Source: Verrucomicrobium sp. GAS474
Lineage (GTDB): Bacteria; Verrucomicrobiota; Verrucomicrobiia; Methylacidiphilales; GAS474
Length of the DNA: 64,000 nucleotides
Direction: 5' to 3'
Assembly: GCF_900105685.1 (NCBI RefSeq)
Contig: NZ_LT629781.1
Span: 1,302,001 to 1,366,000, forward strand
Shown: positions 370 through 62,215 of the stretch, one piece after another
Layout of the letters: every line of letters starts with the position of its first letter
Position numbering within the stretch: position 1 is the first letter of the stretch
Translations under genes and position numbers: made by a program
The notes under the pieces: model-generated
What the model was told of the DNA's origin: nothing
Seen by the model: the letters and a program-made list of their open reading frames with translations, nothing else
The model's database searches: none

Positions 370-434
370 CATGGTGCCTCAAGGAGGTTAGATCCAGCGG
401 AGGAGAATGGGCGTATGGGAGATCGGCCCTAGAC
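370..434 (+). repeat. Dispersed repeat, partial copy F
   Basis: About 65 bases closely match positions 55033-55098, sharing the blocks GGTTAGATCCAGCGGAG and TGGGCGTATGG. It lies between two convergent 3' ends (the MCP fragment and the ureide cupin), and its right end contains the cupin stop codon at 429-431. It corresponds to the left part of copy E only; the hairpin core seen in other copies is missing. Function unknown. Confidence 0.75.
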
Positions 435-23008: not shown

Positions 23009-23256
23009 TCTCCCAATAGGAGTCAGGGCGTCTTGGCCCCGTCTCCCCCTATCGCTCGTACCCTCGGGCGCTCCAGGAAGCAGCCGATTTTAAAACAGTT
23101 CGGAGACGAGGCGCAGGGGAAACGCGTCCGCCTAGTTGAGGCCCTCCGAAGGGGAGGTTCGAGGAGGGGCGAAGCCCCTCTTGGGCTATAAAGCGGATCG
23201 CCTCCAGCTGTACCGGGTCGACCGCGCAGGTCCCGAAGGGCCGCCCCGCCCCTAGC
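23009..23256 (+). repeat. Dispersed repeat, full copy A
   Basis: About 248 bases nearly the same as copy B (61958-62210): shared left block TCCCAATAGGAGTCAGGGCG, then CTCGGGCGCTCCAGGAAGC, GCGTCCGCCTAG, CCTCCGAAGGGGAGG, and a hairpin AGGGGCGAAGCCCCT followed by TTGGGCTATAAAGCGG and CTCCAGCTGTAC. It fills the gap between two convergent genes. No coding potential that makes sense; the short minus-strand frame across it is also seen in other copies. Probably a mobile non-coding or REP-type element. Confidence 0.85.
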
Positions 23257-23274: not shown

Positions 23275-23787
23275 CTACTTCAACTTCTCCTCAACCGGCT
23301 GCGACTCCTCCACCGCGGCCTTCTTCTTCATCGCCTCGGCCGTCCGTTCCGTATCGACATCGAGAAAGAGCCGGATCGCCGTCCGATCCCGGCTGGTGAC
23401 GAAGACCGAGGTCTCATAGAGGAGGACGGCATGGCCGCCGAGGCTCCCCTCCTTCCACTCGCCGATCGGCACCGCCTCGCCGCCCGAGGGAGGAACGACG
23501 GAGAGGATCTTCGTCACGGGGTCGAAGGCGACCTTCGGAAAGGTGAAGAAGAGATCCTCCTTCGTGAGGCCACCTGACGTGGCGTAGCGGCTGTAGTCGA
23601 TGGTGAGGGAAGCGTTCAGCTCCTTCCGTTTCGGATCATAACGGATCACGCGGTTCGTGATGTCGCCGCCGATCCCGATGGTGTTCTTGTCGGGGCTCTC
23701 CACCCGGAAGGCCGTCGCTGAGGCGGGCAGGACGGGAAGAAAAACCAAGGCGAGAGCGAGCAGGGAGAGAAGGGCGTAGCGGCTCAT
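23275..23787 (-). CDS. Hypothetical secreted protein
   Basis: 170 residues with a clear signal peptide (residues 1-25, ending PASATA). The mature part is beta-rich with FRVESPDKNTIGIGGDITN and KELNASLTIDYSRYAT, and ends in a charged Lys/Glu tail. No family recognised. It probably resides in the periplasm or outer surface. An upstream in-frame start exists at 23889 but would bury the signal peptide. The gene stands alone, flanked by repeat copies A and D. Confidence 0.72.
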   Translation of the reverse strand: MSRYALLSLLALALVFLPVLPASATAFRVESPDKNTIGIGGDITNRVIRYDPKRKELNASLTIDYSRYATSGGLTKEDLFFTFPKVAFDPVTKILSVVPPSGGEAVPIGEWKEGSLGGHAVLLYETSVFVTSRDRTAIRLFLDVDTERTAEAMKKKAAVEESQPVEEKLK

Positions 23788-23962
23788 AAAGGTGAAGGGA
23801 TTTTGAGGAAGGCTTAGGAAATGGAAAGGGTAATATGGAAGGCTGACCGCTTCGGTTCCGCCCGCACTCGGACGCGTGATTCCTCCCAAGCGGACAGGGG
23901 CACTAGCGGACCCTTTCTACCCGAAGCGGACGGCCTAATGCGGTACGGCTAGAACAGTTCAG

Positions 23963-24080
23963 GCCTATCAGGCGGGGAGGTCCAGGAGGGGCGAAGCCCC
24001 TCTTGCGTCTTAAAACACGTGCAGATGGCCTCCAGCTGTACAGGGTTATCTGCCCGGTCCCGAAGGAGTGTTCACCGCCC
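23963..24080 (+). repeat. Dispersed repeat, partial copy D
   Basis: The gap 23788-24158 between two divergent genes has no gene. Its right part carries GGAGGGGCGAAGCCCCTCTTG (hairpin core, at 23985-24005), then AAAACACGTGCAGATGG, CTCCAGCTGTACAGGGTTA and GGTCCCGAAGG, matching the right half of copies A, B and E in the same order. The left half is missing or diverged. It is the only copy outside a convergent gap. The rest of this stretch must hold the promoters for ppk and the secreted protein. Confidence 0.75.
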
Positions 24081-24158
24081 CCTTCGCGGCCCCTCCCCCC
24101 TGATTGTCACAGCCCTGTAACAATTTGAGCGTTGTCCCGCCCCCCCTCCCGAGGCATC

Positions 24159-48196: not shown

Positions 48197-48206
48197 ATAG
48201 TGCATC

Positions 48207-48657
48207 GTGCGTCCGGACCTAAGCCGAATTCTGTCCCGGGCGGAGGCCGATGCGCCTGCCGTCCCTTGGGCCGTCATTTCTCTGCCGCCGTCGTTTCTTG
48301 CGGAACGACCGGCGGCCCCGATCAGTGACCGTGGTGCGGCCTAACCCGGAACCGGATCTCCCTCTTGCGAGGGGAATCGGATCAGGCGATCCTGGGATCG
48401 GTCCCTGTTCGGCCTTGCATCGCGTGGGGTTTATCGCTTCCCGCCGTTGCCGGGGGAAGGGTGGGCTCTTACCCCGCCTTTTCACCCTTTCCGGAAGGGT
48501 CTCCCCTCCCGGTGGTCTTCTTTTCTGTGACACTTTCCATGCCGCTCCGCTTGCGCGTGAACGGCTCCGCTGTCTTCCGGCGGCACGCTGCCTGACGATG
48601 TTCGGACTTTCCTCCCGGAAGGAGTGACCCTCCCGAGCGACGACCGTCCGGACGCCT
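48207..48657 (-). ncRNA. rnpB: RNase P RNA, bacterial type A
   Basis: Read on the minus strand, the classic conserved blocks appear in order. GAGGAAAGTCCGAACATCG lies near the 5' end (plus-strand 48594-48615 as TGTTCGGACTTTCCTC). The 3' end has ACAGAATTCGGCTTA (plus-strand TAAGCCGAATTCTGT at 48219-48233). The termini pair as P1: GCGTCCGGAC at 48646-48655 with GTCCGGACGC at 48209-48218. Length about 450 nt is normal for the catalytic RNA that matures tRNA 5' ends. The protein partner gene rnpA is not in the window. Exact ends are estimated from P1. Confidence 0.97.
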
Positions 48658-53385: not shown

Positions 53386-54708
53386 ATGCACCTTCCGTTC
53401 CGCGTCTTGATCGCCACCCAGGATACCCAGGTCCGCCTCGTCACCGAGAATCTCCTGAAGACGGTCCAGGCGAAGTGCCTCGTCGCCGAGACGCAGGACG
53501 CGGTCCTTGCCCTCCTCGGCACCCCGGAAGGGGTCGACCTCGTCGTCGCCGACAGCAGCTGGGAGGGGCTCTCCCTCGAGACGATCTACCGCACCTGCCG
53601 CTCCCGGACGACGGCCCCGGTCGAGACCTACCTCACCGTCCTCGTCGAGGAAACGAACGCCGCCGGGGCGATCCTCGCCTTCAACGCCGGGGCCGACGCC
53701 GTCCTGCGGAAGAACATCGATCCGGTCGAATTCCTCAACGCCTGCCGCGCCGGGCAGCGCCTCTCGGTCCTGGCGAAGATGCACCGCGTGGCGATGGAGG
53801 AGAAGGCGACCGCCGCCTCGGTCCTCACCACGGCGGAACAGGAAGTCCGCGAGGCGACTGCCGCCGCCGCCGCCCTGGTCCAGGAACAGGAGCCGCCCGC
53901 CGAGAACCGGCAGACCTCCCTCGTCACCTCGGCGGAGGCCCCGGCCCCCGCGGCGGCGCAGCCGAAAAAGGCCCGCCTCGCCGGAGGGGAGGCCCCCATC
54001 GTCGTCCGGCAGATGGAGGCCGTCGCCCGGCAGGTCCTCATCGACCAGGGGGCCTCGGAGGAGACCTGCTTCCACGATGTGATCGATGCCGACGCGGTCG
54101 ACGGGCAGGTGCCGGAGTGGTCGGAATTCGTCGGCTGGCAGGGGATCTTCTGGCCGGTCAACAATCTCTGGTTCGACGTCCTCTTCCACTTCAGCCGCAC
54201 CGGGGCGGAGAATCTCTGCCGGTGGACCCTCCAGCGGCAGGCGAAGGAGGACGGCGCCCTCATGGCCGGGATCAACCAATACCTGATCGCCGTCCAGGCG
54301 ACCTATCGCGCCCATTACGAGACCGGCTACGGCCCCTCCTCGACGATCCTCTGCCAGCCCGTCGTCCTCCCCCGGCCCCATTGGATGGAGGAGGCGGGGC
54401 AGGGCGATTTCACCCGCGTGCTGAAGTTCCCGAATTCCTTCGTCGCCTACAATTTCCACATCGCCCCCGCCGCGCTCCAGGTGAAGGCCGCCATCACCGC
54501 CTCCCCCGGGGATATCCTCAACGAGACGATCGCCTCCCGGGGCCAGCGCCCCGGCCCGGGTGTCATGCCGTTGGCGAATCGCGGCGTCATCCTCACGGAG
54601 GGACGGCTGAACAAGATTGTTCCGGACTTGGAGGCGAACCGGACGCTGTGGGTGATCGAGCCGTCGTTGTTTGCTCGGCGGATGGGGGCGTATACGGCGG
54701 TGGATTAG
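53386..54708 (+). CDS. Receiver-like protein with unknown C-terminal domain, paralogue 2
   Basis: 440 residues. Residues 5-125 match paralogue 1 closely (VLIATQDTQVR, LVVADSSWEGLSLE with Asp56, GADAVLRKNIDPVEFLNACRAGQ with Lys109 kept). A Glu/Ala/Pro-rich linker (125-195) leads to a domain (about 200-440) with HDVIDADAV, WQGIFWPVNNLWFDVLFHFS, INQYLIAVQATYRAHYETG and AYNFHIAPAALQVKAAI. I do not recognise it; a weak CheX-like resemblance is not convincing. Phosphorylation is plausible; no kinase is encoded nearby. Confidence 0.7.
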   Translation: MHLPFRVLIATQDTQVRLVTENLLKTVQAKCLVAETQDAVLALLGTPEGVDLVVADSSWEGLSLETIYRTCRSRTTAPVETYLTVLVEETNAAGAILAFNAGADAVLRKNIDPVEFLNACRAGQRLSVLAKMHRVAMEEKATAASVLTTAEQEVREATAAAAALVQEQEPPAENRQTSLVTSAEAPAPAAAQPKKARLAGGEAPIVVRQMEAVARQVLIDQGASEETCFHDVIDADAVDGQVPEWSEFVGWQGIFWPVNNLWFDVLFHFSRTGAENLCRWTLQRQAKEDGALMAGINQYLIAVQATYRAHYETGYGPSSTILCQPVVLPRPHWMEEAGQGDFTRVLKFPNSFVAYNFHIAPAALQVKAAITASPGDILNETIASRGQRPGPGVMPLANRGVILTEGRLNKIVPDLEANRTLWVIEPSLFARRMGAYTAVD

Positions 54709-54721
54709 GGGGGGGCGCGGG

Positions 54722-54957
54722 TTGGGGAGCGCCCGTTGGGGCTGGCGGGGTCGATCCTGTACAGGTGGAGGCGATCCGCTTTAACGCCACAGAGGGGCTT
54801 CGCCCCTCCGTGACCTCCCCTTCGGAGGGCCTTAGCTAGGCGGACGCGCTTTGGCGGCGCCTCGTCTCCTCACTGGATTAAAATCGGATGGTTCCAGTAC
54901 GCCCGAGGGTACGTACTGAAGGGGTAGCGGTACCAATACGCCCAAACTCCTATCGGA
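54722..54957 (-). repeat. Dispersed repeat, full copy C (inverted)
   Basis: Read on the minus strand it matches copy B: GATAGGAGT, CTACCCCTTCAGTACGTACC, CTCGGGCG, GATTTTAATCCAG, GAGGCGCCGCCAAAGCGC, CCTAGCTAAGGCCCTCCGAA, a GAGGGGCGAAGCCCCTC hairpin, and CTCCACCTGTACAGGATCG. It is in the 552-base gap between the receiver-like gene and the MscS gene (convergent), head to head with copy E. No gene lies between 54709 and 55260. Confidence 0.85.
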
Positions 54958-55029
54958 AGAAAAGAGTATGGGAGAGAGGTCTTCAGGGGTCAGCACCGAG
55001 GAGATAGGCCTGCATCCTTGGATGCTCCT

Positions 55030-55250
55030 TCCCATGGCTCGGCCCTCAAGGGGGTTAGATCCAGCGGAGTAGAGTGGGCGTATGGAAGATAGGCCTTTAG
55101 GATTACGCCCCATCTACACCAAGGCCCATCAGACAGGAGGGTCCGGAGGGGCGTGCCCCTCCGTTCGTTCAAACGCGCGGGTCACATCCACCTGTACAGG
55201 GAAATGTACCCGGTCCCGAAGGGCTGCCCTTCCCCCCGCGCCCCCTTTCC
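55030..55250 (+). repeat. Dispersed repeat, copy E
   Basis: Left part shared with copy F at 370-434; right part has GGAGGGGCGTGCCCCTCC, then CACATCCACCTGTACAGG, CGGTCCCGAAGGGC as in copies A, B and D. It joins the two otherwise separate halves of the family and shows that F and D are pieces of the same kind of element. Confidence 0.82.
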
Positions 55251-55260
55251 GAAAAACGTC

Positions 55261-56637
55261 CTAACCCTTCCCCGACGTCTCCGTCCGATCCCGCACCTTC
55301 GGCAGACACTCGGGATAACGCGCCACCACCTGTGCCAGGAGCCATTCCCGCGCCTCGAGCTGGAGGACCGAGGAATCGGCGAGGGTGGCGGCGCTGGCGA
55401 GGAGCCGCAGTTCCATCGAGCCCGCGTCGGCGTCGGTGACGGTGAGGGAGAAGGTCTCCCGGTCCCACAGGCGATGGGTCGCGATCCATTGCCGGGTCTC
55501 GTCCCGGAGGGCGGCGACGGGGAGGGTGAAATCGACCCGGATCTTCACCTGCTGGACGACGGAAGGGGTCGTCGAGGTGAGGTTACGGAAGGGGCGCTCC
55601 AGGAACGACGAGATGGGGAGGATCAGCCGTCCCCGCCCGTCGCCGGTGCGGATCGTGACGTGGGTGAGGGTGATCGCCTCGATGACGCCGCTCTCCCCCT
55701 CGACGGCGACCGAGTCGCCGAGGCGGACCGGCTGGGAGAGGGCGAGCTGGATCCCGGCGAAGAGGGTGCCGAGGGTCCGCTGGGCGGCGAAGCCGATGAG
55801 GATGCCGACGATCCCGGCCGAGGCGAGGAGGGAGGTCCCGATCTGCCGCGCCTCGGGGAAGAGCATGAGGATGGCGGCGAGGGCGATGAGGATGTTCAGG
55901 ACGATGGCGCACTTCCGCAGGATCCCGATGCGGGTGGCGGTGGCGCGGTCGTCGCCCAGCTTCTCCATGCTCCGGCTGTCGGTCCCGGTCAGGTCGGGGT
56001 CGAGGTCGAGGCCGGCGAGGATCGCCTTTTCGATCCCCTGAAGGAGGGCGTGGGAGACGGCGGCGAGGCCGACGATCACGACGATGGCGAAGCCGCGCCA
56101 GATCGCGTGGAGGGCGTCGGTCCCGAGGGAGAGGGAGTAGTGGAGGGTCTCCAGCAGGGAGGCGAAGCCGCCGATGGGGATGAAGACGCGGAGGGCGAGG
56201 GCGAGGACGGGGAAGAGGTGTTCGTCGAAGCGGCTCGACGTGGCGGCGGCGATCGCGGCGAGGCGGGTCTCGACGGCGTCGACGCAGCGGTAGAGGAACC
56301 AGAAGAGGCCGCCGAGGAGGCCGAGGTGCCAGAAGGGAAGGCGGGCCTGCTCCAGCGCGGCGGCGAAGCCGGGATGCTTCAGGACGTGGACGAAGAGGGG
56401 GAGGGCGAAGTAGAGGCAGAAGTACCACGCGCAGAACTGGAGCGGCGGGGCGGCGGCGCGGAGGAGGTCGCGCCGGAGGGAGAGGCGGGTGAGGGTCGCC
56501 GCCGCCGCCTGGTAGCGGGAGGCGCCGGCGGGCTGCGGCCCCCGGCGGCGGACGCTCCGCCAGAGGAGGCCGAAGAGGAGGGCCGCGACGAGGGCGGTGG
56601 CGCATTCGACGACGGAGGAGAGGTGGAGGGAGGACAT
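55261..56637 (-). CDS. Mechanosensitive channel of the MscS family
   Basis: 458 residues. Several N-terminal membrane helices precede the MscS pore helix (LLASAGIVGILIGFAAQRTLGTLFAGI) and cytosolic beta domain (QPVRLGDSVAVEGESGVIEAITLTHVTIRT, LILPISSFLERPFRN). Larger than E. coli MscS (286 residues), with about four extra helices. Releases osmolytes on hypo-osmotic shock. Repeat copy E ends 10 bases from its stop. Confidence 0.93.
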   Translation of the reverse strand: MSSLHLSSVVECATALVAALLFGLLWRSVRRRGPQPAGASRYQAAAATLTRLSLRRDLLRAAAPPLQFCAWYFCLYFALPLFVHVLKHPGFAAALEQARLPFWHLGLLGGLFWFLYRCVDAVETRLAAIAAATSSRFDEHLFPVLALALRVFIPIGGFASLLETLHYSLSLGTDALHAIWRGFAIVVIVGLAAVSHALLQGIEKAILAGLDLDPDLTGTDSRSMEKLGDDRATATRIGILRKCAIVLNILIALAAILMLFPEARQIGTSLLASAGIVGILIGFAAQRTLGTLFAGIQLALSQPVRLGDSVAVEGESGVIEAITLTHVTIRTGDGRGRLILPISSFLERPFRNLTSTTPSVVQQVKIRVDFTLPVAALRDETRQWIATHRLWDRETFSLTVTDADAGSMELRLLASAATLADSSVLQLEAREWLLAQVVARYPECLPKVRDRTETSGKG

Positions 56638-56910
56638 GGGTGGGCGGAAAATGAATTACCCCGCAATGCCGTGTGGATGGGGTCCTTCGACCAGTTTATG
56701 TACAGGTGAAGCGGCTGCATTGAGCTTCCGCCTTCCAGTGAAGGCCCGACGTCGAATCAATCGCGCGGTTGCTTCTTTACAATCATGATTATCGGAGGAG
56801 GGACATGCATCCCAAGCACGAACACCGCAGGGTAAAGGGGCTCGCCTCCTCCCGCGGAGGGAGGAGGACGAAAAGGGGGCGGGACTGGCAGAGAACAGAA
56901 GGGGCCGAAC
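56638..56910. other. Intergenic region with GC-rich hairpin
   Basis: 273 bases upstream of mscS and downstream of pheT without a convincing gene. A GC-rich inverted repeat (CCTCCTCCC/GGGAGGAGG, 56845-56867) could act as a pheT terminator on the minus strand but lacks a clear U-run. A short TGTACAGGTGAAGCGG near 56699 resembles the end of the dispersed repeat, possibly a remnant. A plus-strand frame of 68 codons overlaps the pheT end; see rejected items. Confidence 0.5.
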
Positions 56911-61915: not shown

Positions 61916-61957
61916 GGGGGGCGGGAGAGCCGAAGCGGCCACTCTCCCATAGAGCCG

Positions 61958-62210
61958 TCTCCCAATAGGAGTCAGGGCGTCTTGGTACTGCTACCCCTTC
62001 AGTACGTACCCTCGGGCGCTCCAGGAAGCAGCGGATTTTAATCCAGTTCGGACACGAGGCGCCGCCAAAGCGCGTCCGCCTAGCTAAGGCCCTCCGAAGG
62101 GGAGGTTCGAGGAGGGGCGAAGCCCCTCTTGGGCTATAAAGCGGGTTACATCCACCTGTACAGGATCGACCGCGCCAGCCCCGAAGGGCCGCCCCTCCCC
62201 CGCGCCCCCT
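61958..62210 (+). repeat. Dispersed repeat, full copy B
   Basis: Longest, best-defined copy; 300-base gap between dcd and the convergent Trm112-like gene. It carries every block: TCCCAATAGGAGTCAGGGCG, CTACCCCTTCAGTACGTACC, GCGCTCCAGGAAGCAGCGG, GAGGCGCCGCCAAAGCGCG, CCTAGCTAAGGCCCTCCGAAG, hairpin GAGGGGCGAAGCCCCTC, TTGGGCTATAAAGCGG, ATCCACCTGTACAGGATCG and CCCCGAAGGGCCGCCCC. Compare copies A and C. Confidence 0.87.
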
Positions 62211-62215
62211 TTCCC

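Follow-up and report, generated by a model that had tools for sequence, protein, structure and literature searches.

Hairpin-rich, two-armed intergenic repeats in Verrucomicrobium sp. GAS474 and the C-poor ends of the genes that read into them

Although REP, BIME and BOX repeats were discovered decades ago, it is still disputed whether they are parasites, terminators or stabilisers of RNA. The repeats described here are found in Verrucomicrobium sp. GAS474, a soil relative of the Methylacidiphilum group (PMC5786674), and have likenesses to several such systems. Like the GTAG-REPs and BIMEs with RAYTs (PMC3733652, PMC2817692, PMC3116915), they are high-copy intergenic palindromes at the 3′ ends of genes, which occur singly, head to head and tail to tail, which have alternative complementary bases in their stems, and which have TAG stops at their ends. 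Like the BOX repeats of Streptococcus pneumoniae (PMC3049150), they are present in about 100 copies, are modular, would be structured if transcribed, are enriched between convergent genes, are confined to one lineage and vary in size by an inner module. Like the dRS3-type repeats of Neisseria (the CGTC-1 REPs in PMC3733652), they are mosaic, intergenic and without a dedicated transposase. The differences are equally specific. Whereas REPs are 20–40 nt long, the arms of the GAS474 repeats are ~230–290 nt long; the genome has no Y1 transposase, the shuffling between copies is strong, and the G-TAG at the ends can be explained by a codon gradient rather than by a tag. Dimers and a 3′ intergenic location agree with membership of the REPs, but unit size and the lack of a RAYT do not. 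In contrast to BOX, the GAS474 units are G/C-rich and two-armed with unlike arms, they have no defined target duplication and no matching IS was found, and the codons of the neighbouring genes are changed. In contrast to the Neisseria repeats, the individual ~250-nt arm is itself a mosaic, in which linkage disappears within tens of bases.

The explanation that we favour, with a probability of roughly one half, is that these are RAYT-less, non-autonomous repeats of the REP/BIME/BOX kind, which are transcribed as 3′ untranslated regions and to which the host genes have adapted. They would be long, two-armed elements of intergenic regions, acting in the manner of REP/BIME or BOX repeats, and each arm would consist of a string of hairpins with a terminus that is G-rich as read from the neighbouring gene. 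A stronger proposition is put forward more tentatively, as less likely than not: that transposase-less structured repeats of ~250 nt recombine at the scale of tens of bases and, as the 3′ ends of mRNAs, compelled the genes before them in two species to rewrite their last ~50 codons in a graded manner that avoids C. If true, the host coding sequence would bear a direct mark of its adaptation to 3′-UTR repeats, whether these are selfish or useful.

The window, i.e., the whole stretch of DNA analysed at the outset, is 64,000 nucleotides long. In it, a sequence-only reading had listed six full or partial copies of a family with shared ordered blocks, and all of these are present at about the positions given. 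Three are full copies of one type, T1, with arms of ~230–260 bp: arm A at 23009–23256 (+), arm B at 61933–62215 (+; listed as 61958–62210) and arm C at 54716–54957 (−; listed as 54722–54957). The other three belong to other arm types, with which mainly the right third is common. The segment 55030–55250 is only the right part of a type-E arm that starts near 54958 (54958–55252, +), 23963–24080 is only the right part of a type-D arm that starts near 23821 (23821–24097, +), and 377–428 (+) is a piece from the middle of a type-E arm, with 90% identity to part of the E arm. Arm A is single, with convergent genes on either side, and the gene at 23275–23787 (−), which reads into its right end, has last codons that end almost only in G or T. 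Arms C and E are the partners in a head-to-head unit. The right end of arm C adjoins the TAG stop (54706–54708) of the gene at 53386–54708 (+), the right end of arm E faces the stop, at 55261, of an MscS-like gene (55261–56637, −), and the last codons of both of these genes nearly all avoid C. On the left side of arm B, the TAG stop of the upstream gene is followed directly by a G-run; the main hairpin of this arm, CGAGGAGGGGC-GAA-GCCCCTCTTGG, lies at 62108–62132 (+).

The genome of GAS474 is a single contig of 3,763,444 bp, a complete chromosome, and for the genome as a whole the count of six is far too low. A 23-base T1 motif, with up to two mismatches, occurs 100 times compared with 0–1 times for the reversed control, and a motif from the right end occurs 201 times compared with 28 in the control. 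A whole-genome BLAST search with copy B gave at least 48 matches, with 40 of 188 candidates scored. The description of a dispersed, hairpin-rich family without a transposase of its own holds. The detailed sample comprised every T1 copy plus 40 spread 20-kb stretches (~1.08 Mb in total). At least three types of arm can be distinguished (T1, D and E), which differ in their left parts and are related in the right part, where the order is main hairpin, TCCA(G/C)CTGTACAGG, a small CCCGAAGGG hairpin and then a C-rich end. Arms occur singly, in head-to-head two-arm units and in tail-to-tail pairs: among 100 T1 arms, 18 have an oppositely oriented neighbour at the head and 21 at the tail, and 61 have no such neighbour. 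A head-to-head T1/E unit like that formed by arms C and E is found in at least six places in the sampled sequence. Because the unit recurs, neither one double insertion at C/E nor the earlier suggestion that E may be the younger of the two is supported.

In the alignment of 88 alignable T1 arms (~253 columns), the strongest long-range coupling is that of columns 158/159 with columns 179/180, which are the two sides of the main hairpin. Here A-U and C-G interchange with an r2 of 0.86, whereas the loop site between the two sides has an r2 below 0.2 (0.19) to either of them; two stem pairs of the main hairpin thus covary among the T1 copies. When distinct sequences are considered, 97.6% of cells pair, and none of 500 shuffles, nor any slid version, reaches the covariation score. 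The lower stems of the other arm types, among them the arms of a sister species, differ in sequence and are mostly complementary, and copy-B RNA is predicted to fold better than shuffled sequences (z −2.6). The excess of G.U over A.C in the stem (137 to 14) is weak, because two columns carry almost all of it. A search of Rfam 15 gave no family match at the gathering score and nothing near threshold in the arms, permissive thresholds included, and as far as was tested the copies do not correspond to a known IS or group II intron. Within the window, Rfam matches above the gathering score are given by 6S RNA (56654–56836, −) and RNase P RNA (48204–48656, −). The earlier idea that the copies may be RNAs is favoured by the covariation of the stems and by the avoidance of C in the genes that read into the arms, but nothing shows a stand-alone RNA. 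The arms may be transcribed as 3′ untranslated regions, such that the 3′ end of the gene and the arm are parts of one RNA.

Two other genomes of the genus were compared. One sister carries the family, with 82 right-end motifs vs 24 in controls, and the other has right-end motifs at background only (9 vs 47 in controls). The copies in the repeat-bearing sister are made of the same modules in new combinations. Many contigs of this sister MAG (G002, L186–L212) end within an arm, and therefore its copy number is underestimated. No match was found in 57 further genomes of the order or in viral, phage and plasmid collections, and in a pattern scan of a genome collection the repeat-bearing sister was the only match. 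This distribution suggests that the arms may have spread in the common ancestor of GAS474 and one sister. An extra module of ~61 nt, which carries GGGGAAACTAAC and a GCGCGATAGCGC hairpin (L054:14917–14978; L042 ~1850–1920; other loci), is optional in all arm types: roughly a tenth of the T1 arms contain it, and it is also found in D and E arms and in the sister species, where it additionally occurs inverted at a different place; perhaps, it is a nested element or a removable RNA domain. Along the chromosome of GAS474, none of the 100 T1 arms lies between 2,319,396 and 3,354,971, a gap of 1.04 Mb or about a quarter of the chromosome, in which a few D and E arms do occur. The cumulative GC skew of the sampled stretches peaks near 2.75–2.85 Mb, which places the probable terminus at the centre of the gap. 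The orientation of the T1 arms has no strand bias relative to the direction of replication (46/100).

The arms are located directly behind stop codons, mostly in the gaps between convergent or tandem genes. Of 112 element-bearing gaps, as classified by means of a simple gene caller, 46 (41%) were convergent and 8 divergent; in the large stretches, elements were present in 17 of 94 convergent gaps vs 30 of 587 other gaps (p=5e-5), these stretches having been partly picked near copies, which should favour no gap class. The small terminal hairpin follows the stop at a variable distance, the median being 27 nt. At an orthologous site in both repeat-bearing species, different arm material follows the same TAG stop.

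The genes that read into the arms have a marked gradient in the third codon position. The G/(G+C) at four-fold sites rises from 0.30 (61–100 codons from the stop) to 0.44, 0.62 and, in the last ten codons, 0.86; the rise is present in 70 of 74 genes (p=2e-13; vs controls p=1e-26). The last ~50 codons are affected, and toward the gene end the proportion of C at four-fold sites decreases from 0.68 to 0.13, that of G increases from 0.28 to 0.75 and that of T increases only from 0.02 to 0.10. In NNY codons T increases from 0.10 to 0.54, and NNR codons are nearly unchanged (0.80 to 0.85). Since NNR codons hardly change, and C gives way to G in four-fold codons and to T in NNY codons, the pattern indicates avoidance of C. 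At the first and second codon positions there is slight loss of C only. The gradient fades within ~180 bp of the arm, scales in GAS474 with the G-richness of the sequence behind the stop (rho −0.41), and is strong only in genes that read toward the arm; genes that read away from it and non-coding flanks have a weak skew of the same sense. If gene and arm were in one RNA, the G-rich terminus of the arm would pair with the normally C-rich coding end, and the synonymous loss of C over ~50 codons may be the response of the genes to selection against such pairing. With the real codons, 17.9 pairs between coding and downstream sequence are predicted, compared with 25.0 in synonymous versions with baseline codons (p=1e-7), and controls are unchanged; this comparison is partly circular, because loss of C beside a G-rich sequence must lower predicted pairing. 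The predicted paired fraction around the stop codon itself is unchanged.

To control for gene identity, 800 kb of the repeat-free sister was used, giving 21 reciprocal best hits of arm-facing genes. In these pairs, the G/(G+C) of the last ten codons is 0.865 in GAS474 vs 0.352 in the repeat-free sister, and that of element-free genes is 0.39 and 0.41, respectively. Thus, the gradient goes with the arms and does not look like a pre-existing target. In an independent set of 31 genes that face the arms of the repeat-bearing sister, C decreases from 0.60 to 0.19 and T in NNY codons increases from 0.19 to 0.64, the change being present in 26 of the 31 (p=3e-6). The neighbouring genes can be seen as keeping a readable, dose-dependent record of repeat proximity which, with the repeat-free sister as control, makes the cost or function of a 3′ repeat measurable. 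No report of codon adaptation beside such repeats was found in a search of the open-licence literature.

The gradient could also be passive, as would be the excess of TAG stops described below, if strand-biased mutation or error-prone repair near hairpins, possibly coupled to transcription, eroded C on the strand that reads into the arm. In favour of such a process, the gradient decays smoothly within ~180 bp, the skew in non-coding flanks and, weakly, in genes reading away is of the same sense, and the increase in T is larger than that in A, which biased mutation of one strand would also produce. However, four-fold codons gain G and NNY codons gain T, so that no single mutation spectrum fits simply, and the effect is far stronger in genes reading toward the arm; we consider this origin unlikely. 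Somewhat less unlikely, and still improbable, is that the arms are useful to the host as bidirectional terminators or as stabilisers of mRNA 3′ ends and have been kept for that reason, the C-poor coding ends being part of the device, e.g., by favouring G-rich nascent RNA or R-loops at termination. The location behind stops, the two outward-facing arms between convergent genes, the covarying stems and the avoidance of C in two species are all consistent with such maintenance, but the hairpins are not followed by a visible U-tract, 61% of the T1 arms have no partner, T1 is missing from a quarter of the chromosome, and the repeat-free sister lives without arms.

Stop codons that face right ends are TAG in 55 of 80 cases vs 68 of 182 controls, and the TAG has a G in front of it in 40 of 55 cases vs 58 of 233 controls. 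This G before TAG, together with the head-to-head and tail-to-tail dimers and the 3′ location as described for GTAG-REPs (PMC3733652), would suit membership of the GTAG-REP superfamily, with long units and a mobilising RAYT that has since been lost. However, the third-position gradient accounts for both TAG and the G before it, enrichment of the tag is not clear in non-gene contexts, the arms have roughly ten times the length of a REP, and the genome has no Y1_Tnp; membership of this superfamily is therefore regarded as quite improbable. A GTAG tag as target or terminus, which seemed convincing at first, was set aside as well, as it is explained by the gradient, which the orthologs lack. In the repeat-free sister, 6 of 21 stops are TAG vs 15 of 21 in GAS474.

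Dependence on a RAYT-like enzyme, as had been proposed, is not borne out: Y1_Tnp (PF01797) has no match in the complete chromosome, and the same search was positive in E. coli and four other genomes (5 of 14 control genomes). Neither the RVT_1 reverse transcriptase nor DDE_Tnp_1 (IS5/IS4-type) and DDE_3 (IS630-type) were found in the genome, and rve gave one sub-threshold match, in a TnsAB-like, Tn7-type protein at 1.022 Mb. The region around this protein (genome 1,000,001–1,025,000) is ~51% GC, lies near the probable origin and has an ORF of 2130 aa as well as, read from translated ORFs, a TniB/TnsC-like ATPase that comes after a TnsA-TnsB-like fusion. Neither an insertion event nor a target-site duplication was found, in a sample without pairs of filled and empty sites, and none of the enzyme families searched yielded a mobiliser. 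The possibility that the repeats are classical MITEs, which a DDE transposase would move and which would be bounded by the terminal inverted repeats GGGG-TCGCG ... CGCGA-CCCC and flanked by a TA duplication, agrees with head-to-head units that start and finish in matching G/C-rich termini, some of them with TA on both sides when read by eye. This is very doubtful: besides the results for DDE and rve, the length of the right ends is not constant, the G-run is found next to TGA and TAA stops as well, and the TAG excess is absent in orthologs with the stop at about the same place. For the RAYT-less, REP/BIME/BOX-like repeats that we favour, the enzyme that spread them may have been lost from the genome or supplied from outside.

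The 88 alignable T1 arms are mosaics. The mean r2 between sites with two alleles is 0.43 at distances up to 3 bp, 0.20 at 3–10 bp, 0.10 at 10–20 bp, 0.05 at 40–80 bp and 0.025 at 80–160 bp, a trend with distance that exceeds all 500 position shuffles. Multi-base alleles of intermediate frequency reassort as blocks, and the left half of T1 varies almost independently of the right half, within which residual linkage extends to ~70 bp. Complete linkage equilibrium, which had been suggested by 14 thinned sites, does not agree with the residual linkage seen in the block haplotypes. There are 29 distinct haplotypes vs 51 expected under independence; because of this residual block linkage, the claim is limited to strong decay. 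As decay with distance is not given by a tree of copies without exchange, we infer short-patch exchange between copies. Most likely, the copies would swap such patches via template switching provoked by the hairpins or via short-tract gene conversion, and the patchwork would then be a natural record of short-patch recombination within one genome. The closest-neighbour T1 arms, at genome 1,691,065 and 1,691,374 (309 bp apart and in the same orientation), are identical and probably arose by a recent tandem duplication; apart from these, neighbouring copies resemble each other no more than distant ones do.
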